DNA of 64,000 nt. It comes from Desulfoscipio gibsoniae DSM 7213. Lineage in GTDB: Bacteria > Bacillota > Desulfotomaculia > Desulfotomaculales > Desulfallaceae. The notes under the pieces were generated by a model that saw nothing but the letters and a program-made list of their open reading frames with translations, was not told the DNA's origin and ran no database searches. Made by a program: the position numbers and the translations under genes. The DNA is taken from assembly GCF_000233715.2 (NCBI RefSeq), contig NC_021184.1, positions 1,458,501-1,522,500 on the forward strand, in the 5' to 3' direction. Numbering within the stretch: the first letter of the stretch is position 1; every line of letters begins with the position of its first letter. Of the stretch, positions 16,173 to 46,077 are shown piece by piece.

Positions 16173-16304
16173 AAAAATTATTTATTAAGTTAAAAAGCAG
16201 GAATGTTTTAACTGGCGTTGAATTATTTATCAAAAGGTGTTGGGTTGACTGCTCACATAGCCGACAGGGTAATCATAATAACAACTTTTTTAAAGTAAAT
16301 AATC

Positions 16305-16461
16305 AGCAGGTGCCCCCTTGATGGGGGAGAATAGGGAACCGGGTGTAATTCCCGGGCGGTCCCGCCACTGTAACCGGGTAGCCTGCGCCACAAGGCCACT
16401 GATGATACCATCGGGAAGGCGGCGATTGAGGTGTTGATCCGGAAGCCAGGAGACCTGCCTG
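16305..16461 (+). ncRNA. Cobalamin riboswitch
   Basis: Canonical AdoCbl/B12 element: AGGTGCC near 16308, AATAGGGAA (16331-16339), the conserved CCGCCACTGTAACC core (about 16362-16375), and the B12 box GAAGCCAGGAGACCTGCC (16442-16459). The GCAGGTGCC start pairs with GACCTGCC at the end to form P1. It is followed by a terminator hairpin (16509-16544), so B12 binding is expected to shut off cobT by termination. Confidence 0.95.
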
Positions 16462-16508
16462 CTGTGCGGTAGACTCTTATGTTGGAGAGTATATCGGTGG
16501 ATGATGGC

Positions 16509-28232: not shown

Positions 28233-29099
28233 ATGGCGGCGGATGCTACTTTTTCTGTGCGGGTGGATATTGAGACCAAAGATAAGCTGGCTGAGCTAGT
28301 TGAACAGTCCAGATTAACAGCCAAGGAATTTTTAAGTAGACTGGTTACTACCTATGAAACTACCCTGGCCCGGGAAAGCATGGCTGAATCAAAGGAGCTT
28401 GAAAACCTGCGCCATCACCTGGCCAGGATAGAGGAAATATATATTTCTATCGTTAAGGGTGCCCAGGATCGCCAGGAGGCGGATGCCATTCGGATTAAGC
28501 AGGCTTTAGATGATGCCCAGCAGGCCAAGGCTTAGGCCTTAGATGCCCAAGCGCAAGCAGAAAAGGTTAGCCAGGAGGCTAATGAACGAGTAAATAATGT
28601 AGAGACCGAAGCTGCACTGGCCCGTGAAAATGCACAAAAAGAAATACAGTCTATGCGCGAAGCTTTGGCTCGGGCGCAGGAGGCTCAGGAGCAATCAACA
28701 AAGCTGGCAGTAATTGCGGAAAAAGCTGCTGCCGCAGCGGAAGAACGTGTAAAGGAATTAGAGCAACTGGCTGGTCAGGTACATGAATACCGGCAGCAAT
28801 CAGAAAAAATGTTAAGTAAGGAAAAAGAGGACCTGATTTATCAATTACGCCAAGCCAAGCAGGAAACTGAAAGAATACAGAAACAGTTAAACGATGATCT
28901 AGCCCGTGCAAATGAGAAAGCGGAACTTGCTAAAGAGCGGGCGGTTTTACAAGCACAACGAGAATATATGGATGAAGTAGCCCGGCTCCTCGAAACTATG
29001 GCAAAAACCCGTGAGGAATTAGCACAGGTAAGGGAAGAAAAGGCACGATTGGAGATGTTATTAGAAAAAACACAAGTAGTAACGGAGCTTGACGTTTAG
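28233..29099 (+). pseudogene. Ribbon-helix-helix/coiled-coil protein gene with in-frame TAG
   Basis: The first 100 codons encode a probable ribbon-helix-helix or similar DNA-binding N-terminus (FSVRVDIETKDKLAELVEQS) and the start of a coiled coil. A TAG at 28533-28535 interrupts the frame, but the same frame continues open for a further 187 codons of uninterrupted Ala/Glu/Gln-rich coiled coil to the TAG-type stop at 29097. One CAG-to-TAG change in the run QAKA-stop-ALDAQAQ explains it. The whole resembles KfrA-like plasmid proteins (DNA-binding head plus long coiled coil). A shorter product restarting at the ATG at 28653 is possible. Confidence 0.6.
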
Positions 29100-29114
29100 G
29101 TTTAGGAGGCTGTT

Positions 29115-29700
29115 GCATTGGCCTGGCTCATGCCGGGCCACCCCTTCAAGGGGAGTGAACCACCGACCATTGGGTCAACGGAGCTATCTTTCACTGTAAC
29201 AATTAAGAAATGCTTACCTGGTATTTAAGTTACCTGGTCTAAGATTGGCCAGGCATCCCTGCAATGGGCAGGATTCACAGGGCAACGGAGTTGCCATCTT
29301 AATGACTCGTAATCACGGAGTGGTTGGTCTTTTAAATAAGGATTAGAGTCATACAAGCAGGCTATGTCCGACGTTTTACGGACGCCCGTATATGCGGGTG
29401 CAGCCTGTCGCCACTGACCAACCCGGTAGGGTTGGTTGCCTTCCAGGGGAAGGTTACGTGGCTTAGGGTGCTTAACGAAAGCGAACCTTGACAATACCTT
29501 CTGTTTTACCACGACGTGCTTTATCAGGCATGCCGTGGTAGTGCAGAAGGACCGTCGTAAGACGATAATGTTTAACGCCGCTGGCGGCGTATGGATACGG
29601 GGCTTGCCCCGTCACAACATGCCTGATAAGGCAGGTTGTGACGGGGTCGGGTTTCGACCACGTTTGGTTTGATTTTCGCGGGTTACCGCGTTTGGTCTCA
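29115..29700 (+). ncRNA. Candidate large structured RNA, about 580 nt, upstream of the recombinase pair
   Basis: No credible gene, but about twenty hairpins follow one another almost without gaps. Examples are 29120-29127/29132-29139, 29281-29286/29290-29295, 29418-29424/29429-29435, 29439-29444/29448-29453, 29497-29503/29544-29550 with inner 29507-29513/29534-29540, 29575-29580/29585-29590 and 29677-29681/29686-29690. Longer pairings enclose others (29302-29308 with 29346-29352; 29358-29363 with 29402-29407 around two hairpins, giving a three-way junction). The loops GTAA, GAAA and CTTG read on the plus strand are stable tetraloop types, which suggests transcription towards the recombinases. 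I do not recognise the family. It could also act as single-stranded DNA. Confidence 0.55.
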
Positions 29701-29761
29701 GTACAAAAAAGGTGTGATGATACTTGAGGCTAGCATTGCTATTGCGAAAAGGGGTGTTCGA

Positions 29762-30145
29762 ATGGGTTTTCCGGCCAGGGCCGGTATTAATATGACCGGT
29801 AATGATAAAGTTGATAAGTTAATTAAGCAGTTGGAAAGTATTTTTCATTCCAGCAATGCAGGTTGGAAAAAGTCCCGGAGGGTTAGATTTCATCAATTTA
29901 AGTTGTTCTTAAAGTTCGTCGGCACAAAATTTAAATTGGATGATATTGGTTTCATTCGCCCTACACAAGTTAGGGCTTTTGTTGAATGGCGGAGGGAAAA
30001 TAGAATCAGGGAAAATACAATTCTAACAGATATCTCCACGATTAGATTTTGGCATAAGCAAATACCGCTTAGGCGATACAATTTGCCTTCAAATGAATTA
30101 ATCCTGGGGGATGGTGATTTACGTGACCGCACATGGAAAAGGTAA
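29762..30145 (+). CDS. Stand-alone core-binding (SAM-like) domain of a tyrosine recombinase
   Basis: 127 residues from the ATG at 29762, which has AAAGGGGTG upstream (ATG 29717 is an alternative). It consists only of the N-terminal core-binding domain of a tyrosine recombinase: KLIKQLESIF, FHQFKLFLKFVG, PTQVRAFVEWRREN and TILTDISTIRFWHKQI. No catalytic R/K/H-x-x-R/Y residues follow. The next gene begins inside it (35-base overlap) and has a paralogous N-terminal domain, so the two look like a duplicated pair, perhaps with the first as an accessory DNA-binding subunit. Confidence 0.7.
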   Translation: MGFPARAGINMTGNDKVDKLIKQLESIFHSSNAGWKKSRRVRFHQFKLFLKFVGTKFKLDDIGFIRPTQVRAFVEWRRENRIRENTILTDISTIRFWHKQIPLRRYNLPSNELILGDGDLRDRTWKR

Positions 30146-31051
30146 TGAAAAACATGATGCCGTTCCGGCCGCTTTTAAACCTCTTTGGCAGCAGTTTGAA
30201 AAGATATTTAAAAGTGCTATGAAGGATTGTTATTGTTCCAAGGATACGTTATTTAAAAACCGCAGCAGAATGAGGCAGTTTACTGTTTTCTGTGCTAAGG
30301 AATATAAGATGAGGAATCTGCGAAATATCAGCGATAAACATATTGATGCATTTGTTAACTATCGACGGCAGTCTGGCAGGACGGAAAAGGTGATAAAAAA
30401 TGACTTGTCTGCTATCAGGATATTCCATAAGTATATTCCCAACGCCCGGCACCGGATTTCCGGTAATGAAAAGTTTCAGTCTACACCGGATGGGCGATTG
30501 GATAGGGCTTGGGAGGAACATGAGTACCGGGCGATGCTGGATAAAGCACAGCAACTGGGACGAACTGATGTTGAAATGGTAATGCGATTGGCCAGGAATA
30601 GCGGCCTGCGAATTCACGAATGTTTGCGGATTAATAAAAAGATGGCACAGAAGTTTATTGATTCAGGGGTTATTACTATTAAAGGGAAGGGTGGCAGGGT
30701 AAGAGATGTGCCACTACGGGAGGAAGCAAAGCAGGTTTTAATAAACACAATTGCGAATGTTAAAAAAGACACTGACAAGCTGTTTGTTCCCAGGGGAAAG
30801 CGACTGATCTTGTTAAAGATTCAATTGAAAATTTTATCAGGGACCATAGGGGTAAATGTCAGGTGTCGGGCGCAAGGGAAAAGGGAACAAATATAACGTT
30901 CCATGGGTTAAGGCATACTTACGCCAGAGAAGAATATCGTAAAAGGTTAGAGCATGGAATTTCTAAGATAAAAGCGCAGAAGGAAGTGGCGCTGGTTTTG
31001 GGACATGGAAGGCCAAGGGTGGTTAAAATATATCTTGGGTCGGAAACTTGA
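30111..31051 (+). pseudogene. Frameshifted tyrosine recombinase (integrase)
   Basis: The first frame (30111-30896) gives the core-binding domain and the first half of the catalytic domain with Arg I (NSGLRIHECLR) and the beta-strand Lys (IKGKGGRVRDVPL). At about 30795, in AGGGGAAAGC, the continuation moves to another frame (TDLVKDSIENFI) that carries HGLRHTYA and LGHGRPRVVKIYL to 31051, that is HxxR, the second His and the nucleophilic Tyr. One base gained or lost in the G/A run accounts for the break. The reconstructed protein of about 313 residues would be a complete recombinase. Confidence 0.8.
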
Positions 31052-31222: not shown

Positions 31223-31252
31223 GTCCCCCCGCACGGGGGCGTGGATTGAAAG
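31223..31252 (+). CRISPR. Solitary CRISPR-type repeat
   Basis: A 30-base sequence with the form of a type I-C repeat: GTC at the 5' end, a CCCCCGCACGGGGG hairpin, and the 3' tag GTGGATTGAAAG. I see only one copy, no second repeat within a spacer length, and no cas genes in the window, so it is an orphan unit or array relic. Confidence 0.5.
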
Positions 31253-32074: not shown

Positions 32075-32281
32075 GTGGACTATATTACAGCTCGAGAAGA
32101 TGTCGATAGGTGGGGTATCACGAGGAGACGGGTACATATATTATGTGTTCAAGATAGAATTGAAGGTGCACAAAGACTGGGAAATATGTGGGCTATACTT
32201 AAAAATGCAGAAAAACCAGTTGACAGGCGAACGCTGAGATATAAAAAGATTTGGAATGGGGTCGGGAGGAACAAGGTATGA
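32075..32281 (+). CDS. Excisionase-like helix-turn-helix protein
   Basis: 68 residues resembling small MerR/excisionase-type DNA-binding proteins of Firmicutes: YITAREDVDRWGITRRRVHILCVQDRIEG (winged HTH) followed by LGNMWAILKNAEKPVDRR. Proteins of this kind often precede restriction-modification or defense gene clusters. GTG start. The stop overlaps the ATG of the helicase gene (ATGA at 32278), so it is the first gene of the restriction cassette and a likely regulator. Confidence 0.68.
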   Translation: MDYITAREDVDRWGITRRRVHILCVQDRIEGAQRLGNMWAILKNAEKPVDRRTLRYKKIWNGVGRNKV

Positions 32282-35200
32282 ATGAGGTCATAAGCTCTAA
32301 TGAACAGCTTATTGCCAAAATTAACGAAGTTTTAAAAGAAAAAAACGACAGAAATATCGATATCATTAACGATAAATTAACTTTGTCCGTGTTTGGAGAA
32401 CTTTCCAAAAGCCTCAAGAATGTCAAACGCATCAACTTTATTATTCGCAATATGGCGTATGTCCCCACCGGGCATGAACTCCCCCGCGAATTTGAGATTG
32501 AAAACAATTCGACTACTGACCTCTTATTCAATTCCTACGATATTGTTCAGAAAAACAAGCTAAAACATTTTTCCAGAGCCAAATCCATGCATGATTTTAT
32601 CAAGCAGCATGTCAATGTAAGGAAAGTAAAAGAATCGGACAAGGTTACCGGCAATATCATAATGATTGATGATGAGATTGCGATCCAAGGGACTTCATCA
32701 CTCGAAATATCAAGAAAGACCAAACGGGGCGAATTGGCACCAATTCATTTTAATTCTCCTGTGACCGAGAAAGTACAGCTTGAACATTTCAAGCGGTTGT
32801 TTAACATTATCTGGAACAATAACGATTATACAGAGGATTTCAAAGAACAATTGCTGGAAAGCCTAAGTTATGTGTATAAAGACTATTCCCCTGAATTTAT
32901 TTATTACTTTACCTTAAAAGAGATTTTTGGCAGTCAGTTGGATAGCGGTGTGGAACGCTTCGAGAAGGATAAAACTGGCTTTAAAAAGTCGGTAATTTGG
33001 AATAGCCTGTATGACTTTCAGAAGGACGCTGTCGCTTCCGCCATCCAGAAAATCAATAAGTATAATGGTTGTATCATTGCCGATAGCGTAGGCTTGGGGA
33101 AAACATTTGAAGCGTTAGGTGTTATCAAATACTTCGAACTTCGGGAAGATAATGTATTGGTTCTATGTCCTGCCAAGCTCTATGACAATTGGGATTCCTT
33201 TAAAAACCCTTATGTCGATAATGCTTTTGTTAAGGATAATTTTAATTATAAAATTCTCTGCCATACGGATTTGACCAGGACAAAGGGGTACTCTCGAAGC
33301 GGGATTGACTTGTCCCGGGTAAATTGGAGCAACTTTGACTTGGTAGTTATTGACGAGTCCCATAACTTCCGCAACCGTAACGAAGATCTGGATCATATGA
33401 GTCGTTACACAAAATTGATGGACGATATTATTAAAAAAGGACATGGTACCAAGGTCTTGATGTTATCGGCGACGCCCGTTAATAATTCCTTAACGGATCT
33501 AAAAAATCAAATCAGTATAATTACGGTCGATCGGGATTTTGCCTTTGAAGAAGTAAATATACCCAGTATTTCAAGCTTGTTGAGAAGGGCACAAAAGGAA
33601 ATCAATGCTTGGGTGGGCACCGAAGAACGCAATAAGAATGATCTTTTGGACAAGCTTCCCGCCGATTTTTATAAGCTCCTGGAGATGCTGACGATTTCGC
33701 GCAGCAGGAAGCATATCACAGGTTACTATGGTAATAGCAACTTTAGTAAATTCCCGGAAAAGTTGCCTCCTGAGACGTATTATCCTGAAATAGATACCGA
33801 AGAACGACTACTAAAATTTGATGAAACCAATGAGATATTGGAGTCCTTAAAACTGGCCGTATACTCTCCAATGAAATACATTAAGTCGGAGTATAAGGAA
33901 TATTACCGCAAAAAATTCCAGACTATCTATGGTGACAGGGTGGTATTTTATCACGAAAATCGTGAACTGATTGCCGCTCGCCTGCATCGCTTTAATTTAT
34001 TTAAACGTCTGGAAAGCTCAGTTTTTGCTTTCAAAGAAACCATTCGTAGGCTTATTGACCGGATAGATAGTTATATCAATACAATTTCACAGTGTAAATC
34101 AGGGGAAGTTGAACTTGAAGGGGAGGAATACATTGAAGACGATACGACGTTGGATTATAAATATGAAATTAAAGTGGAACATCTGATCGCCGGCGATTTT
34201 TTAGAAGATTTATATTACGATAAGGAAATTTTAGATACCTTATACAAGAATGTTTTGGAGGTACTTGACGGGAAAAGAGATGCCAAACTAAAGAAGTTAG
34301 AAGATATTATCATCGAGAAGATCACCCGGGCCCCTTACAATGCGGGAAATCGTAAAATGCTAATTTTCTCAGCGTTTACCGATACAGCGAATTACTTATA
34401 CGACTGCATTGGCAAAGAGCTGGCCCAGAATGGGATAAACATAGCATGTATAACCGGGTCGGGTGAGCCCAGAACCACTATGAAGAATGTAAGGTGTGAA
34501 TATAATACCATACTGCGGCATTTTTCACCGCTTTCTAAAATTGGCGAAGAGCTTCCCAGACAGGAGCAGATTGATGTCGTGATTGCCACAGACTGTATTT
34601 CAGAGGGACAAAACTTACAGGATTGCGATACCGTGATCAACTATGACATCCAATGGAATCCAGTTGTCCTTATCCAGCGGTTTGGTCGAATTGATCGTAT
34701 AGGTAGTAAAAATGAACGGATTGCCATGATTAACTTTTTCCCCAATTTGGCACTTAACGACTATTTACAGCTGGAACAGAGAGTCAAAGGCAAAATGACA
34801 GCTGTCAATCTAACGGCAACCGGTGAGGAAGATTTCCTTTCACCCGAGATGAACGATTTTATGTTTCGTAAAAAGCAGCTTGAACGCCTGCAAAATGAGG
34901 TTGTAGAAATTGAAGAGTTAAATGATAATATCTCTCTGACAGACCTAAATATGAACGATTATATATATGAGCTATCCTCATATATCAAGGAAAACCCTGA
35001 AATTATGCGAATTCCCCGGGGTGTTCACTCGGTTGCCGGTGGGGAAAAGAAAGGCTGCTTATTCTGTTTCAAGCACCAGAATGAAGATGCCAAACCGGCC
35101 AGCGAAAGCTCACTTTACCCCTATTACGTTATGTATATCAGTAATAAGGGTGAGATTTATTATGGTAATGCGAATGCCCGTGAAGCTCTTAAGGAATTCA

Positions 35201-35445
35201 GAAAAATTGCGTATGGCAAGTCAAACCCTGACCCGCAATTGGTTAAGAAGTTTAATAAGAAGACCAAGAATGCCGATGATATGTCTTTTTATTCCCAGCT
35301 GCTGAATAAAGCGATAGCGGTCATTCAGGGAGATGAAGATAAAAAAGCAGAACAATCGATATTTGATTTTGGCGGTTATAATAACGACTTTGCCAATTCC
35401 AGCACTGATGATTTTGAGCTGATATCTTTCCTGGTTGTGGAATAG
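32278..35445 (+). CDS. SNF2-type helicase of a type III restriction cassette
   Basis: 1055 residues. An N-terminal region of about 220 residues precedes the helicase core. Motif I is ADSVGLGKTFEALG, motif II DESH (VVIDESHNFRN), motif III LSATPVNN and motif VI QRFGRIDRIG, as in SNF2-family translocases. A long charged insertion lies between the two RecA lobes. A C-terminal region has CLFCFKHQN and a bound-substrate-like domain. GGGAGG lies eight bases before the ATG at 32278. Followed after 10 bp by DUF4391, mod and res; the helicase is probably a translocase that cooperates with the restriction complex. Confidence 0.88.
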   Translation: MNEVISSNEQLIAKINEVLKEKNDRNIDIINDKLTLSVFGELSKSLKNVKRINFIIRNMAYVPTGHELPREFEIENNSTTDLLFNSYDIVQKNKLKHFSRAKSMHDFIKQHVNVRKVKESDKVTGNIIMIDDEIAIQGTSSLEISRKTKRGELAPIHFNSPVTEKVQLEHFKRLFNIIWNNNDYTEDFKEQLLESLSYVYKDYSPEFIYYFTLKEIFGSQLDSGVERFEKDKTGFKKSVIWNSLYDFQKDAVASAIQKINKYNGCIIADSVGLGKTFEALGVIKYFELREDNVLVLCPAKLYDNWDSFKNPYVDNAFVKDNFNYKILCHTDLTRTKGYSRSGIDLSRVNWSNFDLVVIDESHNFRNRNEDLDHMSRYTKLMDDIIKKGHGTKVLMLSATPVNNSLTDLKNQISIITVDRDFAFEEVNIPSISSLLRRAQKEINAWVGTEERNKNDLLDKLPADFYKLLEMLTISRSRKHITGYYGNSNFSKFPEKLPPETYYPEIDTEERLLKFDETNEILESLKLAVYSPMKYIKSEYKEYYRKKFQTIYGDRVVFYHENRELIAARLHRFNLFKRLESSVFAFKETIRRLIDRIDSYINTISQCKSGEVELEGEEYIEDDTTLDYKYEIKVEHLIAGDFLEDLYYDKEILDTLYKNVLEVLDGKRDAKLKKLEDIIIEKITRAPYNAGNRKMLIFSAFTDTANYLYDCIGKELAQNGINIACITGSGEPRTTMKNVRCEYNTILRHFSPLSKIGEELPRQEQIDVVIATDCISEGQNLQDCDTVINYDIQWNPVVLIQRFGRIDRIGSKNERIAMINFFPNLALNDYLQLEQRVKGKMTAVNLTATGEEDFLSPEMNDFMFRKKQLERLQNEVVEIEELNDNISLTDLNMNDYIYELSSYIKENPEIMRIPRGVHSVAGGEKKGCLFCFKHQNEDAKPASESSLYPYYVMYISNKGEIYYGNANAREALKEFRKIAYGKSNPDPQLVKKFNKKTKNADDMSFYSQLLNKAIAVIQGDEDKKAEQSIFDFGGYNNDFANSSTDDFELISFLVVE

Positions 35446-35455
35446 GGGGATTACG

Positions 35456-36184
35456 ATGCTATCCATACCAGGCAAATACGAAATAAACAAGGAATTTGCG
35501 CTGAAAACCTTTATCTCTGCTGACTTGACACCAAAAGAGAAAAAACGATTCAGGGAAGTTGTGGAAGCAGTGCAGCTTTCTTATCAAATCGCCGGCGAGG
35601 ATATTCCCTCTCTGGTAAATGAAGAGTATGACTGCCAGGTCATCTTGTTTTTCAGTGTGCAGTTAACGGTGCTCAAAAATGCGATTTTCATTGGCAATAT
35701 TATACAAAGGCTTGTTAAGCCCTTATGCCTAATTCGGTTTTATGATTATACCAATCATGAAATCTATTGCTTTTGTCATAAACGCTTAAACCTGCAAGAC
35801 AGAACCCAGATAGTCATAGAAGATACGGTGTATTCTGCACCTGCATCAATGCAGTTTAGAGATGAAATAAATACCTTGATACATGAATACATAGAATTTG
35901 ACAGAATTCAAAACAGAGGCAACAAACTGGATTTTTACCTTGAAATGATGATCAAAACTTATATCACATCTAATTTAAATTTATGGTCCGGGGTAAGACA
36001 ATTACTTGTCTCCAGGGTGTGGTATAATCGCCCTGATATGTTAAAACTCTATTCTCAGCTAAAGAGGGTAGCACAGTTAAAAAAAGAACAAAAGTCTGCC
36101 AGGACAGTGGCCCAAAACGCACAGATAAATGGGGAATTAAAACGGCTGTATAGTGAGTTTGCCAAATATATTGAGTGCGTTTAG
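35456..36184 (+). CDS. DUF4391-type protein of the restriction cassette
   Basis: 242 residues from the ATG at 35456 (GGGGGA upstream; the frame opens earlier inside the helicase end). A mixed alpha/beta protein with a basic C-terminal helix (LYSQLKRVAQLKKEQKSARTVAQ). It matches the DUF4391 group, which is repeatedly found between a helicase and a type III methyltransferase gene. Biochemical role unknown; an adaptor or DNA-binding subunit is a reasonable guess. Tightly spaced with both neighbours. Confidence 0.75.
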   Translation: MLSIPGKYEINKEFALKTFISADLTPKEKKRFREVVEAVQLSYQIAGEDIPSLVNEEYDCQVILFFSVQLTVLKNAIFIGNIIQRLVKPLCLIRFYDYTNHEIYCFCHKRLNLQDRTQIVIEDTVYSAPASMQFRDEINTLIHEYIEFDRIQNRGNKLDFYLEMMIKTYITSNLNLWSGVRQLLVSRVWYNRPDMLKLYSQLKRVAQLKKEQKSARTVAQNAQINGELKRLYSEFAKYIECV

Positions 36185-36197
36185 GAGGATGAAGGTA

Positions 36198-36526
36198 ATG
36201 GAGTTCAAGAAAATACAAAAGGGGATATTTGACCCGGTAAGTGAAAATGTAAAAAAGCTGGCCGACTTATTTCCGTCCGTTGTTAAAGATGGACAAGTCG
36301 ATTTTGAGGCTTTAAAAAATGAATTGGGCGAATTCGAAACGGTTAGTGATAAATTATCTGAACGCTATGAGCTTGGGTGGGCTGGGAAAGAGGATGCCAA
36401 ACGTCTTACTACTGCAGATGTTGTAGGTAGGACGCTTAAATATGTTCCGGAGGATAGTAAAAGTGCAGATATTACCGAGAATCTATATATCGAGGGGGAT
36501 AATCTTGAAGTTTTGAAGCTATTTCG
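36198..36526 (+). pseudogene. mod: Type III methyltransferase (mod), 5' fragment
   Basis: Starts at the ATG at 36198 with AGGAGG upstream. About 110 codons encode the N-terminal part of a type III Mod protein: KLADLFPSVVKDGQVDFEALK, ERYELGWAGKEDA and LYIEGDNLEVLKLF. The frame then enters the insertion sequence at 36527 and stops nine bases later. The next residues of the protein (RNSYYSKIKMIYIDPPYNTG) continue at 38187, after the IS, in the same phase once one 8-bp target copy is removed. Confidence 0.93.
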
Positions 36527-38186
36527 GGCTTGCTGAACCGAACTTATTTTAATTAAAACAGTATAATAACGGTTCTTGAAAACCCAGATTATACCGAAAC
36601 AGACGCCGCATAAAAAAGAACAAAAGAACACGGAGCCTACGTTCCAAATTCATTACTAGGAACTGCAGGCAGATCACGCTTTCGGCGGTCTCTTTTAGAC
36701 GTGCCATAATACGTGCCAATCCATAGCGACGCTTGCCTTCTCCGAATTTCGCTTCTACAGCATTGCGTTCGCTGGCATCTTGCCGTTCTATGCGTCTCTG
36801 TTCTCTCTGTAGTACTTTATCAATCAGTGGTCTTCCTAGCCGTGGTCCACTGAGCCGTATGTTATATCTATCGCAGAAGCGCAGGTTTTCCCTATTCCGG
36901 TATATTTTGTCTGCCTGAACGGCTTCAGGGTAGTACCCGTACTTTTGGCGGTAATATTCCACCGATTCTTGCAAGGTTACTCCTTCATTGAAGGCATCCC
37001 AACTCAGCGTTTCCACGAAGGCGTAGCCATCTACCATACTGATAGCGACTTTCGCGCCGAACTCGACATCAGCCGTGGCCTTACCTCGGACAATGGGACG
37101 CACATGCGGCTGGCTGATGCTTACAATGCGATCATTTATCTTGTGTTTGCGGTAGGTATACATATGGAGTTGTTGTTCATAGACCATACGTATGGTGCGC
37201 AATGTATCCTGTTGTTTCTGACTCAGACCATGACTATCACCGGCCATAGCTAGTAGGCGGTCTACAGCACTTAGGTTGCGCCTCACATAGCGCAGCTGCT
37301 TGCCGATGGCTTTTCGGATAGCTTTTTTACCAGGCTTTCTGTTGTGAACAATGTTAAGGTAGGCTTTACGAGCTATTTGACGATAAGTACGTGGTCTTCT
37401 ACCTGGCTTACCAAGAGTCTTGTGCACGAGATCGATAATGTTATCCAACTTCTCCCTAGCTTCGTTAAGCAAGGATAAGTCAGTGGGGTAGCGTATGTCT
37501 GCCGGGGCGCAGGTGGCATCCAAGATGAGTTTGCCTTTGTTTGCCGGATATACCTCAAAAGAAGAGGCTTTGCTTTTTGGGCTATTTGGTTCTTTCGCGT
37601 GCGTTTTTTTGCCACCTGAAGGTGGTTTAGGCTTGTTGTCATCGTCCTTCTTTTGCTCTTCCGCTTTCTTGGCGGCACGACAGATTTCTTCGTTGATATC
37701 TTTTAGGGTTTCAGAGCCAAAACGCTTACGAAAGTGGACCATTAGTGAAGAATCAAATGGTGGCCGATCATGGTATTCCCTTAGACCGATGAAGTATTGT
37801 AAGTACGGATTCTCAGTGATCTGCTCCACTGTTTCACGGTCACTATAGCCACATTTCTCTTTAATGATTAAGGCACCAAGGGCCATTCTGACGGGTTTAG
37901 CCAACTGTCCACGGTTGCTGGGAAAAAGATTGGCATAGCGTTCTTCGATGCTTTCCCAGGGGATAATTTTAGCTAGTTTTACCCAGCGGTTATCAGCTCT
38001 TAATTTGCCTTCAAAAGGCAATATAAATTCTTCAAGATAATATTGGTTTTCCACTTTACGGAACATATTTTTTGCCTCCAGGTGCACGGTTTTTGCAATC
38101 TTTACCGCATTTTCCATGCATCTTATTTCGACAAATATGCTCCTAAATCCTTGATTTTATTGGGTTTTTGTTTGGTTCAGCAAGTC
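36527..38186. mobile_element. IS element (IS5/IS1182-like) inserted in mod
   Basis: 1660-bp element with imperfect terminal inverted repeats (GGCTTGCTGAACC at the left, GACTTGCTGAACC read inward from the right, 12 of 13 identical). It is flanked by the 8-bp direct repeat CTATTTCG (36519-36526 and 38187-38194). It carries one minus-strand transposase. Removing it with one repeat restores the mod reading frame exactly, which proves the ends. Confidence 0.93.
36549..38117 (-). CDS. DDE transposase of the mod-inserted IS
   Basis: 522 residues. The N-terminal region (NRGQLAKPVRMALGALIIKE, ENPYLQYFIGL) is the DUF772-type domain of IS5/IS1182-group transposases. The DDE core follows: LILDATCAPADIRYPTD, then EAVQADKIYRNRENL, then RNAVEAKFGEGKRRYGL. 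A Lys/Pro-rich linker (about residues 150-190) separates them. The frame is uninterrupted, so the element may still be active. The exact IS subgroup needs an IS database comparison. Confidence 0.9.
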   Translation of the reverse strand: MENAVKIAKTVHLEAKNMFRKVENQYYLEEFILPFEGKLRADNRWVKLAKIIPWESIEERYANLFPSNRGQLAKPVRMALGALIIKEKCGYSDRETVEQITENPYLQYFIGLREYHDRPPFDSSLMVHFRKRFGSETLKDINEEICRAAKKAEEQKKDDDNKPKPPSGGKKTHAKEPNSPKSKASSFEVYPANKGKLILDATCAPADIRYPTDLSLLNEAREKLDNIIDLVHKTLGKPGRRPRTYRQIARKAYLNIVHNRKPGKKAIRKAIGKQLRYVRRNLSAVDRLLAMAGDSHGLSQKQQDTLRTIRMVYEQQLHMYTYRKHKINDRIVSISQPHVRPIVRGKATADVEFGAKVAISMVDGYAFVETLSWDAFNEGVTLQESVEYYRQKYGYYPEAVQADKIYRNRENLRFCDRYNIRLSGPRLGRPLIDKVLQREQRRIERQDASERNAVEAKFGEGKRRYGLARIMARLKETAESVICLQFLVMNLERRLRVLLFFFMRRLFRYNLGFQEPLLYCFN

Positions 38187-39842
38187 CTATTTCGGAATAG
38201 CTACTATAGCAAAATTAAGATGATATATATTGATCCTCCATATAATACAGGTAATGATTTTATATATAAGGACAATTTTTCAATTAGCCAAGAGGAAAAT
38301 GCTGTTTTAGAAGGTGACTTAAATCAAGCTGGGGATAGACTGATAGTTAACCAAAAGAGTAATGGTAGGTATCACTCTAATTGGCTTTCAATGATGTATC
38401 CAAGGTTAAAAGTTGCAAAAGATTTACTAAGGGAAGATGGAGTTATTTTTATAAGTACTGATGATAATGAAGTAAACAATTTAAGAAAATTATGTGATGA
38501 AATTTTTGGACAGGAGAATTTTATAGGCTTATTTATTATTAATTCTTCTCCAAGTGCAATTGATTATGGTCACATAGCCAAGATGCATGATTATGCTCTT
38601 TTTTATGCTAAAAATATGCAGGAAACTACAACACAACAGCTACCTGATGAAAATAAGAATTTTAAATACGTTGATGAAATAGGGCCTTTTAATCTCTACC
38701 CTCTTTATCATGGCAATGTCGCTTTCAATCCTAAAACTAGACCAAATTTGTTTTATCCATTTTATTTAAATCCTTTTAACAAGGATGATAATGGTTTTTA
38801 TGAAATAGGCCTTGAAAAAAAAGATGGTTGGGTTGATGTCTATCCTGTTGTTTCAAAAAAAGACAATATTCAGCATGTTTGGAGATGGAGTAAAATTAAA
38901 GCTATCCCGGAGCTGAATCGTGAAATCGTTGGTTATAAAACAGCAGAAGGTGAATTTAGAATAGTACAAAAAACGAGGCTTACAGGAAAGGTTATACGTT
39001 CCCTGCAAATTGACAAGGAGGTTTCCAGTAGAAGAGGAACTGCAGAAGTTGAAAAGATTTTTGGAAAGAAGTTATTTCCATTTCCAAAACCGATTGAGTT
39101 GATTGAGAGATTTATCAGCATTGGCATGGAAGATAATGATATAATTCTTGACTTTTTCGCTGGTTCGGCAACCACAGCTCATGCCGTTATGCAATTAAAT
39201 GCTAAAGATGGTGGTAACCGCAAGTTTATCATGGTACAACTTCCTGAACCATGTGAAGAAAAAAGCGAAGCGTTTAAAGGTGGTTTTAAAAACATATCTG
39301 AAATTGGAAAAGAACGCATTCGCAAGGCTGGTGAAAAAATAAAAAAAGAAAACAAAGATAAAGTAGATAAAGAAAGCATAGAAAACCTTGATGTAGGCTT
39401 CAAAGTGTTTAGAACGGCTGATACAAACATCCGCTGGTTTAGCGAAGCCATAAAGTCTGATATATTTGATTATGATCAGACCATGTCAGAAAAAGACAAA
39501 CTAGATTTTAACCCAGGCTATACCGATATTGATGTAGTTTATGAGATCCTGTTAAGGCATAGAGATATCCCCCTTTCAACAAATGTCGAGAAGCTATCTT
39601 CAATCGGAGAACGAACCTACATTTTTGCCGATACGGTTGTCGTATGTCTAGAAGAGAACGTCACAGAAACCATTATTGATAAAATTGCGGCCATTGAACC
39701 AATGCCTACAAAGGTTATCTTCCGTGATAGTGCCTTTGAAGATAATATCTCCCTCAAAACCAACAGTATGCTGCGACTTGAAGCCCAGATGAAAAAGAAC
39801 AGTGGGATTGAGAAGAAAGCCTACAGAGTTGAGTTTATTTAA
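38187..39842 (+). pseudogene. mod: Type III methyltransferase (mod), 3' fragment
   Basis: Continues the mod gene after the IS. The catalytic motif DPPYNTG (N6-adenine methyltransferase motif IV) lies at about 38232, and the SAM-binding DFFAGSATTAHAV (motif I) comes later, which is the beta-class order of type III Mod proteins. The C-terminal part (to 39842) carries the domain that recognises Res and DNA. The frame is open throughout; a start inside the fragment would lack the N-terminal region but keep both catalytic motifs. Confidence 0.92.
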
Positions 39843-39856
39843 GGGGGGGTGAAGCT

Positions 39857-42800
39857 ATGTCAAATCGGATTACTTTTCAATTTGATGATAAACTGGATTA
39901 TCAAGAGAAAGCAATTAACTCGGTTGTCGACCTTTTTAAAGGGGTTAGCCGTCAGGATGAGGGGACAATCTACCGGAATATACATCGGATTAAAATGCTC
40001 CATGAAGGTGATCCTGTTCGCAACCCCCAAATTATAAAGGAAGCTAGGCTCTTAAACAACTTGCGTGATGTTCAACTTAAGAATAAGCTCATGCTGGATA
40101 ATGAACTGAAGGATAGAAATTTTACCATTGAAATGGAAACAGGTACAGGGAAAACTTATGTGTATTTGCGTACCATCCTTGAACTAAATAAGATTTATGG
40201 CTTTATAAAGTTTATGATAGTTGTGCCCAGTATTGCAATCAGAAAAGGTGTAGAAAAAAGCATTGATATGTTACAAGAGCATTTCAAGTCTCTTTATGAT
40301 GGACTTGATATTAAGAATCACGCTTTTGTGTATGATTCAAGCACCCCCAAAAAGATCAGCAGCAGTTTCGTAGAAACCAGAGATTTAAGTATTGTGGTCA
40401 TGAATATTCAGGCTTTTAACAAAGACACGAACAAAATTCGTCAATCGGATGAATACGGGCAAATTCTCTGGGAGGATATTAAATATATTAGCCCTATCGT
40501 AATTATCGACGAACCGCAAAAGATTGAAGGATCGGCCAAGAAAAAAAGTGCATCGCTGGAAGCCATTGAAATGATCAAACCGCTATTTATACTGCGTTAT
40601 TCGGCAACACATAAACGGCTATTTAACCAGGTGTATAAGTTGGATTCTTATGATGCTTACCAAAATGATTTGGTTAAAAAGATCGAAGTGAAAACTGTTC
40701 ATGGCACCATACCCAAGGACTACCCTTATGTCCGCTATGTAGAATTTACCAGGGACTTGTATGCCAGGATCGAGATTTTCCACGTAGAGCAGGGTGGGGT
40801 TATCCGTTTACGGCAGTTTAAAGTTCGTGGCGGTGATTCCCTATATGAATGCTCAGGTAATCTTGGGCAATACAAAAATATGATTGTGCAGGAAGATCCG
40901 CATAAACTGAAAAAACTTAAAATCAGTAATTGGGATGAAATACTGGAACTAACGGTTGGCGAAAGCAATATTAATTTTGGGGAAGAAGAAACAATAAGAA
41001 TCCAGATTAGACTTGCCATTAAAAACCACCTGGAGAAACAATATAATATACTCAAAAAAGGCTATAAAATTAAGGTATTAACCCTTTTCTTTATCAATGC
41101 TGTAAATAAATACCGGGATAGCGGGGCTGCCGATGGACGTGGAGAATATTTAAAGATTTTCGATGAGGAGTACACTAAAATTATTGCTGATCCCAAATGG
41201 AATAAAGTATTTAATGAATATCCGGAACTATTTAAACAATACCAGGATGTTCAAAAAGTGCGCGAGGGTTATTTTGCTATAGACAAGCATAAAAAAGCCG
41301 TTGAGATTGAAAACTGGGATAGCATTATGGATGAACAGAAGCTCAAAGCCAAATCACAAGAGGATATAGATAGGGGAATTGAACTGATATTGGAGAAAAA
41401 GGACGAACTGATCTCCTTTGATGAACCATTGACCTTTATCTTCTCTCATTCCGCCCTTCGTGAAGGTTGGGATAACCCCAATGTATTTACAATGTGTACC
41501 CTGAAGAAAAGCGGTTCCGACATTGCTAAAAAACAAGAGATCGGTAGAGGCTTACGCCTTCCTGTTGATATTAACGGGAACCGGATTAAAGACAGTGAAG
41601 TTGCCGAATTGACCATTGTCGCCAATGATCATTATGACCATTTTGCGGCGGCGCTGCAGCAGGACTTTAATGATCATTCGGGATTTAATAAAGATGAAGT
41701 TACGATTGACGTAATTTATAGCACCCTCACAGAAGCCGGGGTTCCAGAGAATAAGGTGATGGAGGTTGCTGAAGTCTTTAGAAATGAGCTAATTCAATGT
41801 AAGATAACCAATAAAGAAGGCCTCTTGACGAAAGAAGCCAAGCAAATCGAGAACATCAACTTTAACAATGAGACGCTTCAAGAGCACAGTAAGATGATTA
41901 AAGCAAAGTTTATAGATGCCATGCGCAAGAAAGGCACCAAGAAAATCCCAATTAAAAATGGGGATGAAGAACCTGTTGTAAACGGTAAGAACAGCTATAT
42001 TTCGGAAGAATACTTTAAAAAACTCTTAAAAGAATTAAGCGCAAGAATGTCCAAACGTACTATGTACCAAGTGAATATTGATAGTGCTGCATTTATAAAA
42101 GCGTGTGTTCTTGAGCTAAATGAAAAACTCAAATACAGGAACATTAAGCATGAGTATGTAATTGAGTCGGGTAAAGCCGATTTTGACGAATTAAGGAAGT
42201 TCAAAATGTCTGAGGCCTCGGCACAAAAAATGTTTGAAGAACTGGAGGGTATGGATACCCGGAAGAGTGAATTCGAGATTATCAATTACATCATGTACCA
42301 CACCATGCTGCCCCGCCTGGCTATTTATAAGATTATTTCAGGTCTCGAGAAAAAGAATTTGCTTCAAAACCAGGATATCCTTGACCAGGTGACTCAAGGA
42401 ATAAAAGCCAAACATACAGAATTTATGGCTGACGGCGATATTAAATATGAAGTTATTGATGGTTATGTTTTTGAAGAATCAACCATATTTGAAACAGAAC
42501 AGATTGACAGGGCAATGCTTGATGATGTATCAAATCTCGTCTTTAAAACTAATGCTAACAATCGTAGGGCAGTTAATATGTATTATAAGTTTGATAGCAA
42601 AGGTGAACTGGAGTTTGCTAAGAGGCTTGAGTCTGACGAGGAGGTACTTCTTTATACCAAACTCAAAAAAGGCGGATTTGTCATAGATACACCCTACGGA
42701 GCATATTCCCCTGACTGGGCAGTAATTCGCAAGGGAAGCGAAGGTATCGCCAGACTATTCTTCATTGTTGAAACAAAGATCGACAAGGACGAAAAGGATC

Positions 42801-42925
42801 TAAGCGGAGTCGAAAAAACAAAGATAAAATGTGGAAAGCTTCATTTTAAAGCAGTTGCTGATGACGTAGAATTTAAGCAGGCGAGAAACTACGATGATTT
42901 TTTAGAGAAAATTGGGGCTAAATAA
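39857..42925 (+). CDS. res: Type III restriction enzyme Res subunit
   Basis: 1022 residues. The superfamily 2 helicase core begins with Walker A ETGTGKT (about residue 96). It continues with DEP (IVIIDEPQKIEG) as motif II, RYSATH as motif III and QEIGRGLRLP as motif VI. The C-terminus carries a PD-(D/E)xK nuclease (YSPDWAVIR followed by IVETK). Type III Res translocates or diffuses on DNA and cuts 25-27 bp from the site, but only together with Mod. GGGGGG lies seven bases before the ATG, 15 bp after mod. Intact. Confidence 0.93.
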   Translation: MSNRITFQFDDKLDYQEKAINSVVDLFKGVSRQDEGTIYRNIHRIKMLHEGDPVRNPQIIKEARLLNNLRDVQLKNKLMLDNELKDRNFTIEMETGTGKTYVYLRTILELNKIYGFIKFMIVVPSIAIRKGVEKSIDMLQEHFKSLYDGLDIKNHAFVYDSSTPKKISSSFVETRDLSIVVMNIQAFNKDTNKIRQSDEYGQILWEDIKYISPIVIIDEPQKIEGSAKKKSASLEAIEMIKPLFILRYSATHKRLFNQVYKLDSYDAYQNDLVKKIEVKTVHGTIPKDYPYVRYVEFTRDLYARIEIFHVEQGGVIRLRQFKVRGGDSLYECSGNLGQYKNMIVQEDPHKLKKLKISNWDEILELTVGESNINFGEEETIRIQIRLAIKNHLEKQYNILKKGYKIKVLTLFFINAVNKYRDSGAADGRGEYLKIFDEEYTKIIADPKWNKVFNEYPELFKQYQDVQKVREGYFAIDKHKKAVEIENWDSIMDEQKLKAKSQEDIDRGIELILEKKDELISFDEPLTFIFSHSALREGWDNPNVFTMCTLKKSGSDIAKKQEIGRGLRLPVDINGNRIKDSEVAELTIVANDHYDHFAAALQQDFNDHSGFNKDEVTIDVIYSTLTEAGVPENKVMEVAEVFRNELIQCKITNKEGLLTKEAKQIENINFNNETLQEHSKMIKAKFIDAMRKKGTKKIPIKNGDEEPVVNGKNSYISEEYFKKLLKELSARMSKRTMYQVNIDSAAFIKACVLELNEKLKYRNIKHEYVIESGKADFDELRKFKMSEASAQKMFEELEGMDTRKSEFEIINYIMYHTMLPRLAIYKIISGLEKKNLLQNQDILDQVTQGIKAKHTEFMADGDIKYEVIDGYVFEESTIFETEQIDRAMLDDVSNLVFKTNANNRRAVNMYYKFDSKGELEFAKRLESDEEVLLYTKLKKGGFVIDTPYGAYSPDWAVIRKGSEGIARLFFIVETKIDKDEKDLSGVEKTKIKCGKLHFKAVADDVEFKQARNYDDFLEKIGAK

Positions 42926-43157
42926 CATAGCACCGCCGCTAGTGTTTGCAATACGTTTTAATCTAGGACGTGTTGAAACGGGTTTTATTTCTCTCAATAG
43001 CCCCGTGGCACACTTTTATAAGCAACCCATTCCTCTTTAGGTGCTCTTACTACTTTACTAACTCCACTAGCTGCAAAAGATTTGGAATACGATGTGTCCC
43101 AATAGATTAAAAATTGTAAACCCTTAACCATGTGGAGATGTTACAGGAGAGTGAAAA

Positions 43158-44099
43158 TTGAAGCTAAAAGATTATTCAATTGGACAATTGTTTAGTGGTT
43201 ACCTTGCCGTTAAGCTATGTAATATTCGCCAAACAAATCAAAACCCACCAAAAGATTATCTCGACTTACGCCTGACTGATGGTGACACCGAAATTGTAGC
43301 CCGGGTTTGGGATCACTCTGGACAAGCTCCAACTGAAAATTCGGTCATATTTGTATCTGCTAATCTAACCCAATTTAGGGGTGAGAATCAACTTAATATA
43401 TCTGAGTGGCGTCAGGTCAGCCAGGAGGAATATAATCCACGTGATTTTCTTCCGGTATGCCCATATGACACTAATATCCTTATGAGGCAGTTGGAAAACT
43501 ATATCCTGCAAGTGAAAGATATTGGCCTTGCCCAAATGATAAGGTCAATTTTTTCTAAGTACTATAATAAATTTATTGAAGCCCCTGCTGCGATAAGTCA
43601 CCATCATGCTTATATTGGTGGGCTAATTGAACACACCTGTGGTGTAGCCGACCAGTGTCTACGCTTGGCCACGCCCGGAACAGATAAGGACATACTGTTG
43701 ACTGGAGCCATTCTTCACGACGTTGCAAAAATCTTTGATTATGATTGGTCAGGTTGTGTTATGACCATGACTGATACCGGCCAGTTGCTTGGGCATATTA
43801 CTCAGGGTATGATGCTTATAAAAAGTCATGCACCCAACTGCCCGGATATATCAACTAAAAAGCTAAATCACCTACTTCACTTGATCGCATCTCATCACGG
43901 CAAATTGGAATGGGGCAGTCCTGTTGAACCGTGCACATTGGAAGCGGTTTTATTGCATAACGCTGACGTGCTGGATGTACAACTGTGGAAACTTAATCAT
44001 GCACGGGATCAGGTCTCAGAAGGGGAGAAGTGGACAGCTATTATTAAAGGGTTAAATAGGCGGTTTTGGGTTGGGTCAGGTGAAAGTGATGCAAAATAA
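43158..44099 (+). CDS. OB-fold/HD-domain 3'-5' exoribonuclease, YhaM-like
   Basis: 313 residues. An N-terminal OB-fold nucleic-acid-binding domain (about 1-100, with LDLRLTDGDTEIVARVW) is followed by an HD phosphohydrolase domain (about 150-290) with HHHAYIGGLIEHT, ILHDVAKI (HD), HITQG and SHHGKLEWG. This is the YhaM layout, a Mn-dependent 3'-5' exonuclease acting on RNA and DNA. TTG start after CAGGAGAG. It lies between the type III cassette and Gabija, about 160 bp from each transcription unit; no sign that it belongs to either. Confidence 0.85.
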   Translation: MKLKDYSIGQLFSGYLAVKLCNIRQTNQNPPKDYLDLRLTDGDTEIVARVWDHSGQAPTENSVIFVSANLTQFRGENQLNISEWRQVSQEEYNPRDFLPVCPYDTNILMRQLENYILQVKDIGLAQMIRSIFSKYYNKFIEAPAAISHHHAYIGGLIEHTCGVADQCLRLATPGTDKDILLTGAILHDVAKIFDYDWSGCVMTMTDTGQLLGHITQGMMLIKSHAPNCPDISTKKLNHLLHLIASHHGKLEWGSPVEPCTLEAVLLHNADVLDVQLWKLNHARDQVSEGEKWTAIIKGLNRRFWVGSGESDAK

Positions 44100-44259
44100 T
44101 AAGCCATTCGAGATTTAAGATAATATGAACATGACCATATATAATAATGAATTGCTCTTATTATTATCGCTTATAACGGGTAACACAGGTAAGAATAGGT
44201 AGTTTTTGTTCGTACAAAAATAAAAGAAATTGCTTATATTTTAAAGGATGTGAGAAAAA

Positions 44260-46077
44260 ATTAAAATCAACCGGGTTCAAATAAAGAATTTCCGTAATTT
44301 TAAAAATCTTGACGTTACACTTGGAGAACATGCAGTTATTGTTGGAGAAAATACCATCGGTAAAAGCAATTTCTTATATGCATTGCGGTTAGTTCTTGAC
44401 CCATCGTTGCCTGATACTGCACGTCATCTGCAGGAATCGGATTTTTGGGATGGCCTTCCTCGTCCTTTGAAAAAAACTGCTATGATTAGCATATCAATTG
44501 ACCTGGTAGACTTTGAAGATAATGAAGATTTAATGGCTATATTGGCGGAGCACCTCGTAGACCCGGAACCTATGACTGCACGTTTTACCTATGTATTTCA
44601 GCCTTTAGCGACACTTTCAGGTTCGCCAAGCTCTGACGCAGATTATGAATTTATTATTTATGGCGGCGATCGAGCTGAAAACAGGGTTGGTTACGATGTC
44701 AGGCGTAGGATTCCAGTAAATGTTCTTTCTGCTCTCCGTGACGCTGAGGGAGATCTGTCAAGCTGGAGACGTTCACCTTTAAGACCTTTACTGGATGAGG
44801 CGGCCAGGGAAATAGACCGTGAAGAACTTAATAACATTGCCTCGGAAGTGGCTGATGCTTCAGCAGAATTACTGAAGAATAATGAAATCAGTGAGTTGGC
44901 AGAACAAATAAATAATAGACTTTCAGATATGGTTGGTAAGTTCAACAGTTTAAACACCATACTTGGTTTTACTGCAACGGATCCTTATAGACTTATAAGG
45001 GAAATACGCCTTTTTATTGATGGAGGGAAAAGGGGCGTCGGTGAGGCTAGTCTTGGTTCGTCAAATTTGCTTTACCTAGCTCTTAAGTCACTGGAACTGG
45101 AACAACTCGTTGAACAGGGAAGTAGGGATCATACATTCCTTGGCATTGAGGAGCCCGAGGCCCATTTGCACCCCCACTTACAAAGGCTTGTTTACCGCGA
45201 TTTTTTGAGACCTCGAAGCCACCGAGAAGGAGAGGACGGTCGCTCTGAAATCAAGCACAAACACCAAACCATACTCTTAACTACCCATTCACCTCACATT
45301 GTTAGTGTATCCCCACTGCATTCAATTATCCTCCTTCGCCGGTCATCATCCGAAAATACTACAGAGGCAGTATCTACTACTCAAGTAATCCTTGACGAGA
45401 AGGAAATAGCAGATCTTGAACGCTATATTGATGTAACACGAGGTGAAATGCTTTTTGCTAAAGGTGTAATTCTTGTTGAGGGAGATGCGGAAGAATATCT
45501 TGTTCCAGTTTTGGGTAAACGTCTTGGCTATAACTTTGACGAACTGGGGATAACGGTTTGCTCAGTATCCGGCACCAATTTTGCCCCCTACGTTAAATTA
45601 CTTGGGGAAAGCGGCTTGAGAATACCCTTTGCCGTGTTAACCGACCTTGACCCACAATCAGATGGCAGATACCTTGGTCATTCCCGGGTAACAAGTTTGC
45701 TAAAAGAAATTATGGACGAAGGGGAATACCAAAAAGCGGAAGATGAGGGTAAATTACTTGATTTGGCTCCTAATTACGGTATTTTTCTTAACAACTATAC
45801 GTTGGAGATAGACCTGTTTAAATATAAGCGCCATAAAAGTATGTGCAGTACTTTAATTGAACTAACAGAAAATAATGCGGCCAAAGAACGGGCAAGAGTT
45901 TGGAGAGAAGCCCCTGAAAAACTTGATGAAACCAAGTTTTTAAAAGATATAGGTGCAATAGGTAAAGGCCGGTTTGCCCAACGTCTGGCCACAAAAATTG
46001 CCAATTACAAAGCAACCATATGTCCGCCGTACATTAAGGAGGCCATTAAGTATGTCGCCGGCAAATGTTCTAAATAA
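44260..46077 (+). CDS. gajA: Gabija nuclease GajA (OLD-family ATPase-Toprim)
   Basis: 605 residues. The ABC-type ATPase domain has Walker A GENTIGKSN (about residue 29), an ABC-signature-like region (LGSSNLLYLALKS), Walker B GIEEPEAHLHP and an H-loop TTHSPH. It is followed by a Toprim nuclease domain (LVEGDAEEYLVPVL and TDLDPQSDG). GajA cuts DNA at specific sequences when nucleotide levels fall and works with GajB. An in-frame TGA at 44251 and the lack of ATG/GTG/TTG before the Walker A make ATT at 44260 the only sensible start (KINRVQIKNFRNF follows). The next TTG (44383) would delete the P-loop. Confidence 0.93.
   Translation: MKINRVQIKNFRNFKNLDVTLGEHAVIVGENTIGKSNFLYALRLVLDPSLPDTARHLQESDFWDGLPRPLKKTAMISISIDLVDFEDNEDLMAILAEHLVDPEPMTARFTYVFQPLATLSGSPSSDADYEFIIYGGDRAENRVGYDVRRRIPVNVLSALRDAEGDLSSWRRSPLRPLLDEAAREIDREELNNIASEVADASAELLKNNEISELAEQINNRLSDMVGKFNSLNTILGFTATDPYRLIREIRLFIDGGKRGVGEASLGSSNLLYLALKSLELEQLVEQGSRDHTFLGIEEPEAHLHPHLQRLVYRDFLRPRSHREGEDGRSEIKHKHQTILLTTHSPHIVSVSPLHSIILLRRSSSENTTEAVSTTQVILDEKEIADLERYIDVTRGEMLFAKGVILVEGDAEEYLVPVLGKRLGYNFDELGITVCSVSGTNFAPYVKLLGESGLRIPFAVLTDLDPQSDGRYLGHSRVTSLLKEIMDEGEYQKAEDEGKLLDLAPNYGIFLNNYTLEIDLFKYKRHKSMCSTLIELTENNAAKERARVWREAPEKLDETKFLKDIGAIGKGRFAQRLATKIANYKATICPPYIKEAIKYVAGKCSK

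Follow-up and report, generated by a model that had tools for sequence, protein, structure and literature searches.

The closest described system is the xerDC RNA (Rfam RF03062), a motif of 126 nt that Rfam classes as a cis-regulatory RNA, an assignment that is comparative only. Its consensus consists of a hairpin, two tandem three-way junctions, and then the tail AuCgUACUgACC. The literature searched contained no paper on xerDC RNA, and none that links a structured RNA of this type to tyrosine recombinases. Integron attC, which serves IntI, and the attP of CTX phage, which serves XerCD, are folded single-stranded DNA sites. In attC the length of the terminal structure varies (PMC2727003); the attP of CTX phage folds from ~150 bases of ssDNA (PMC5357621). 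A structured RNA at an Xer plasmid-resolution locus is represented by the Rcd RNA of ColE1 cer, and the RNAs GOLLD, ROOL, OLE, and HEARO are large, hairpin-dense, and located on mobile DNA.

Anatomy and neighbourhood of the element

The window, that is, the whole 64-kb stretch of DNA that was analysed, contains a hairpin-dense element that starts 3' of a coiled-coil protein gene (28233-29099, + strand) and stops ~18 nt short of the start codon with which the first recombinase gene begins. Its parts and the two genes that follow are:

29106-29699 (+): whole hairpin-dense element, ~590 nt, RNA or folded single strand (MFE z -10.7; equivalent regions in relatives)
29106-29111/29694-29699 (+): enclosing helix of the element (MFE)
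29112-29352 (+): 5' variable hairpin domain, ~ten hairpins and a further junction at 29302-29352 (MFE helices)
29357-29408 (+): three-way junction A, stem 29357-29363/29402-29408, hairpins 29366-29383 and 29384-29399 (MFE)
29410-29462 (+): three-way junction B, the conserved core, stem 29410-29414/29458-29462, hairpins 29416-29437 and 29438-29454
29463-29476 (+): linker and conserved tail, TTAGGG-TGCTTAAC, family motif TRCTNAAC, the tail itself at 29469-29476
29497-29550 (+): long interrupted hairpin, 20 nt past the tail; relatives have a 15-27 bp inverted repeat at the same place
29598-29656 (+): long hairpin with arms CCCCGTCACAAC/GTTGTGACGGGG at 29607-29618/29635-29646
29717-30145 (+): small protein with the N-terminal SAM-like (core-binding) recombinase domain only, without the catalytic domain
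30111-31048 (+): Xer-type tyrosine recombinase, frameshifted near 30790-30830

The hairpin-dense stretch is a real, conserved folded element. The MFE of 29100-29710 is -277.6 kcal/mol on the + strand, compared with -207.3 +/- 6.6 kcal/mol for 20 dinucleotide shuffles (z -10.7), none of which (0/20) matches it; the - strand also shows an energy excess over shuffles (-234.2 kcal/mol, z -10.2). The + strand structure has 20 hairpin loops and leaves 195 of 611 bases unpaired, which agrees with the roughly twenty dense hairpins of a preliminary description of this DNA, and the three-way junction that had been placed there at 29358-29407 is present in the MFE as 29357-29408. Adjoining it is a second junction (29410-29462), not named in that description, which is the most conserved part. 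The region was rightly said to hold no credible gene: the longest ORF inside it is 95 aa, on the - strand, and the ORF list contains no likely gene there. The argument from tetraloops carries little weight, GNRA loops numbering 8 on the + strand versus 3 on the - strand in 27 regions. In relatives the 5' variable domain has a different set of hairpins, and it gives no alignment between families.

Rfam returned no match for the element in the window at gathering or at lax threshold (E up to 5), and the GOLLD, ROOL, HEARO, OLE, and group I/II intron models were all without match; an intron identity was dropped for want of an Rfam match. Nucleotide BLAST of the element against plasmids and phages gave no match, and BLAST within its own genome (a 4.86 Mb single-contig chromosome, of which the window is bases 1458501-1522500) recovered nothing beyond the query, the inverted repeat inside it, and a chance match of 17 bases. 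REP-like repeats were also dropped, as there is a single copy per element.

The two genes 3' of the element had been described as two recombinase genes. This is correct for the second, a full Xer-type tyrosine recombinase, though its first frame runs to 30896 and the C-terminal catalytic HxxR...Y part lies in another frame, to 31048; the first encodes the SAM-like domain only, as judged from its relatives, of which the one in L035 matches Phage_int_SAM models. Because the recombinase is frameshifted, the copy of the element in the window may be in decay. In profile searches the recombinase is nearest to XerC, XerD, and XerA, with integron integrases weaker and all matches far below curated cut-offs. 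Several other features were recorded in the surrounding DNA. The coiled-coil gene is open over 289 codons except for an in-frame TAG at 28533-28535, with which mutation, error, and amber read-through are all compatible. A defence island lies 3' of the cassette at 32251-47929 (+) and includes an HKD+Snf2 helicase with DUF4391, a type III restriction-modification pair (38043-42925), and Gabija GajA/GajB (44383-47929). The lone CRISPR-repeat-like sequence GTCCCCCCGCACGGGGGCGTGGATTGAAA at 31223-31251 (+) has no second copy in the window, and Rfam identifies a cobalamin riboswitch at 16291-16476 (+) with 133 bits. No convincing attachment-site repeats were found against the two tRNA genes in the window.

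Compared with the known systems, the element is most similar to xerDC RNA. Both have two tandem three-way junctions with two adjacent hairpins each (29357-29408 and 29410-29462 in the window), and both lie directly 5' of an XerC/XerD-like recombinase gene on the same strand. In xerDC RNA a short single-stranded tail, UACUgACC, comes after the junctions, and TGCTTAAC at 29469-29476 is its probable counterpart in the window. They differ in the second-hairpin loop of junction A, which is conserved as AgUUCAG in xerDC RNA and reads ATAT at 29390-29393 in the window, and in size, the 126 nt of xerDC RNA standing against ~590 nt with many extra hairpins and long inverted repeats; unlike xerDC RNA, the window element is also accompanied by an additional recombinase gene that encodes one domain only. 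Integron attC and CTX attP share with it a hairpin with conserved arms and a variable interior beside a tyrosine recombinase, whereas the window element is single-copy, has a tandem junction core and no cassette array, and resides in a Bacillota host. Rcd is likewise a structured RNA at an Xer locus, but it is ~70 nt long, has its own promoter, and acts on tryptophanase (PMC5357621). The large RNAs GOLLD, ROOL, OLE, and HEARO resemble the element in size, hairpin density, and location on mobile DNA, but have no tandem-junction core linked to a tyrosine recombinase.

The conserved core and its occurrence in relatives

Relatives were located by recombinase protein homology. They have a hairpin-dense non-coding region of ~400 to 690 nt directly 5' of the recombinase gene pair, and the same kind of leader precedes homologous recombinases in 13 conjugative-element loci; one locus (G033) was also recovered by DNA similarity alone (74% over 108 nt). 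Records of Moorella and Desulfovirgula retain the gene pair, as do related genomes. The surroundings of the pair in relatives include ArdC-like, RadC, and DUF3854 genes on the 5' side and, in several, a TraG-type coupling protein on the 3' side, and the cassettes of the relatives therefore probably sit in integrative conjugative elements. Distant relatives of the recombinase were found on circular plasmids of Brevibacillus, Paenibacillus, Sutcliffiella, Heyndrickxia, Alicyclobacillus, Vallitalea, Sporosarcina, and Natranaerobius, with an unannotated gap of ~0.5-1.5 kb 5' of the recombinase that is hairpin-dense in most; the leader was recorded on plasmids of Brevibacillus, Paenibacillus, Sutcliffiella, Alicyclobacillus, Vallitalea, and Natranaerobius. 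On the Vallitalea pronyensis plasmid (L172, ~2000-2500) a tandem array of near-identical hairpin-rich units is present 5' of the core.

Comparison by eye showed that the core common to relatives consists of two tandem three-way junctions followed by TRCTNAAC, a motif directly 3' of junction B that is the probable counterpart of the xerDC tail. Junction A has its counterparts in the tandem first junction of the relatives and of the xerDC consensus, with partial model matches in L041, L042, and L163. A descriptor made of the second junction and the tail matched the window, over its whole length and both strands, only at 29410-29476. Control loci totalling 0.95 Mb yielded 10 matches, only 2 of them with the strict tail, and in loci outside its design set it matched 6 of 16, all on the + strand and 128-363 nt 5' of the recombinase; the same 16 loci gave 0 matches on the - strand, and 100 shuffled sets likewise gave 0. 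The hairpins were misaligned in a MAFFT alignment of 13 cores, which was kept out of the covariance models. The first model (R1), built from three Moorella-type sequences, recovers the core in other conjugative elements. The second (R2), built from seven loci without the window, plasmids, or any xerDC sequence, was searched against two sets: plasmid, gut, and viral loci (94.6 kb), where the best 11 matches are all on the + strand and just 5' of the recombinase, and control recombinase loci (96.8 kb), where there are 4 scattered matches, the best at 13.0 bits. The third (R3) was built from 16 loci, again without the window. In 113 whole genomes it has 11 matches with E < 1e-5; each of them precedes this recombinase on the 5' side, and no cassette has more than one. 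In the plasmid records a fast search gave one match each in 5 of 8, the remaining three having weak local matches. Model searches that excluded the window from training thus place the core 5' of the recombinase in gut Firmicutes, in conjugative elements, and on plasmids of Bacilli.

The copy in the window matches these models weakly: 8.3 bits and E 5.2 with R2, and 12.5 bits and E 0.69 with R3, for which 29410-29476 is nevertheless the best site of the 64 kb on both strands. Because of this R3 E value we count the copy as divergent and assign it from the combination of its position, its anatomy, and its tail. Junction B itself is identified by the sole descriptor match, the best R3 site, and the covariation in relatives. 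In the 16-sequence alignment 94.6% of cells are paired, 17 of the 18 core pairs have changes on both sides, and the covariation score is 0.721 versus 0.153 +/- 0.026 for shuffled alignments and <=0.120 with slid partners, figures that are flattered by the fitting of this alignment to the structure; the 7-sequence set gave the same picture. The covariation among homologues that the preliminary description asked for was thus found.

The recombinase tree contains a supported clade (100/99) of 48 rows; the core is present in 35 of these and in none of the 7 tree rows outside the clade (0/7). The window recombinase is placed beside G033 and G034, within a subclade of 17 rows that have the core without exception, and the 13 clade rows without a detected core may represent missed divergent copies. 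At the level of sequence comparison, the element is shown to occur as a single copy, in the same orientation, before one recombinase clade on Bacillota plasmids and conjugative elements. The reverse strand of L209 (G066) carries a G063-type core without a tyrosine recombinase, with a serine recombinase gene ~0.9 kb further on, and this orphan core is read as a remnant; in L164 (G470) the core is absent 5' of an otherwise Moorella-type recombinase, the alignment showing unrelated sequence there.

The connection with xerDC RNA comes from L048, an Oscillospiraceae record with a homologous recombinase, in which Rfam identifies xerDC RNA at 1775-1897 (86.7 bits), the only useful match that the relatives gave at gathering or lax thresholds. 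R2 marks 1844-1897 in this record, which is the xerDC second junction with the tail, although the match is weak taken alone (8.9 bits, E 5.9), and the R3 run did not report the L048 core. Since R2 and Rfam coincide in L048 and the anatomy is the same, we call the window element xerDC-type, and we conclude from these sequence comparisons that it is most probably a divergent, enlarged relative of xerDC RNA. The xerDC gathering score is not reached in the window, where there is no match even at E up to 5, and 100 related genomes gave no xerDC match over the cut-off; the xerDC matches that related genomes gave at lax settings are not near a recombinase of this type and were taken as chance.

Possible roles as leader RNA or as folded single-stranded DNA

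In most loci the tail is followed by a long inverted repeat, perfect over most of its length, with a loop of 3-85 nt. GTCTC/GAGAC inverted pairs occur in 15 of 31 loci versus 1.9 expected from shuffles; the relatives of the hairpin at 29598-29656 have arms CCCGTCTCAG/CTGAGACGGG or longer GTCTC/GAGAC arms, and the comparable arms in the window read GTCAC/GTGAC. A stem conserved in sequence, as opposed to the freely varying junction stems, suggests recognition by a protein, which would most simply be the recombinase. As for the nature of the strand, G-U and A-C changes number 321 versus 324 overall and 31 versus 21 in the conserved helices (p 0.21; 11 versus 8 in an earlier small count), and since G-U does not significantly exceed A-C, these counts do not favour RNA over folded DNA. 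An apparent G-U excess in the RNAalifold table was rejected as biased, since the program permits G-U. Strict hairpin loops on the + strand contain A over T beyond the prediction from composition (p 0.005). No sigma-70-like promoter was found in 28900-29800.

On balance we favour, as first choice, a structured leader RNA of an Xer-type recombinase cassette carried on plasmids and integrative elements, divergent from xerDC RNA and enlarged. The fixed 5' position, the A-rich loops of the + strand, and the Rfam reading of xerDC speak for it. The element would form a long 5' leader on the transcript of the recombinase genes, and its junction core and GTCTC/GAGAC stem would be bound by the recombinase or by the domain-only partner protein. 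Such binding might couple the synthesis or activity of the recombinase to the state of its DNA site, possibly as autoregulation in plasmid multimer resolution or element excision.

The main rival, which we consider possible although less probable, is that the folded + strand, exposed as ssDNA in conjugation or rolling-circle replication, is a structured recombination site for the neighbouring recombinase, like attC or CTX attP. This reading draws on those two precedents, on a partner that is a tyrosine recombinase with profile kinship to XerC and a weaker one to integron integrases, and on the lack of asymmetry between G-U and A-C. The variable-loop inverted repeat after the core, with its sequence-conserved GTCTC/GAGAC, would also suit such a site, and the carriers can pass through single strands, with a T4SS coupling protein near the cassette and a rep gene on the P. 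polymyxa plasmid; in addition, the gene cassettes directly 3' of the recombinase differ among near-identical elements. However, integron attC forms arrays of multiple sites, whereas here there is exactly one core per recombinase in the 113 genomes and in each plasmid record, and an integron-like cassette array was dropped on account of these single copies. The conserved tandem junctions exceed what attC needs, no site-like repeat was seen at the cassette boundaries, and the Rfam classification of xerDC, comparative as it is, is that of an RNA.

The differing cassettes were observed in the near-identical elements of L041, L042, L161-L163, L032-L034, and L043, which carry different toxin-antitoxin-like genes directly 3' of the recombinase stop codon and past which identity resumes. 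Their contents, with gene names read from the sequences by eye, are HigB-HigA-like in L041/G451, a DUF4160-like gene in L042/G318/G208, BrnT/CopG-like in G342, an antitoxin with PIN in G063a and L043, a nucleotidyltransferase in G062, and 6.9 kb of other DNA in G063b.

Beyond the favoured leader RNA and the folded site, we tentatively propose, while thinking it rather unlikely, that the element serves the Xer-type recombinase as an integral nucleic-acid cofactor or as a folded substrate, which would be a type of tyrosine recombinase system so far undescribed. Recombination on the carrier plasmids and conjugative elements would then proceed via a ribonucleoprotein or a branched ssDNA site, bound by the catalytic recombinase together with its domain-only partner.

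A trans-acting plasmid-maintenance RNA that signals unresolved multimers to the cell, as Rcd of ColE1 does, appears improbable. There is precedent at cer (PMC5357621) and some carrier plasmids have ParA genes near the recombinase, but Rcd is short and made in dimers from a promoter of its own, while the present element invariably adjoins the recombinase on its 5' side, and the search of 28900-29800 recognised no promoter of the element's own. Even less probable is a palindrome-rich region acting as duplex DNA, with sites for the recombinase and an accessory protein and no single-strand function. Recombination sites are commonly 5' of resolvase genes and one conserved sequence segment does lie within palindromes, but junctions kept by compensatory changes with free sequence are needless for duplex binding, and loop composition is asymmetric. 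A free-standing ornate RNA of the GOLLD/ROOL/OLE sort, with an incidental linkage to the recombinase, is the least probable of all, for despite the similar size and hairpin density and the occurrence of such RNAs on phages and plasmids, the Rfam matches are absent and the linkage to one recombinase clade is one-to-one and in fixed orientation.

Reach of a proposed xerDC-type family

The proposal of the preliminary description, an undescribed large RNA, stands in so far as this is a large structured element of mobile DNA, tied to recombinase genes, with no Rfam match of its own; it does not stand for the core, which has a precedent in the anatomy of xerDC RNA and is not of the GOLLD/ROOL/HEARO kind. 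The alternative in that description, single-stranded DNA as the substrate of a recombinase, is less probable but possible. The xerDC kind is already known though uncharacterised, and what is new is its reach and size. As far as the searched literature goes, xerDC RNA is a motif without any experiment. The present comparison points to a far wider family, associated with one recombinase clade, of which xerDC RNA would be the narrow section seen in gut Firmicutes. At one end of its range are conjugative elements in the chromosomes of related and Moorella-like bacteria, and at the other are small Paenibacillus and Brevibacillus plasmids. Whether the element acts as RNA or as ssDNA decides between a leader that regulates a recombinase and a new kind of folded recombination site, and with this wider family the orphan xerDC motif becomes a testable system on cultivable plasmids.
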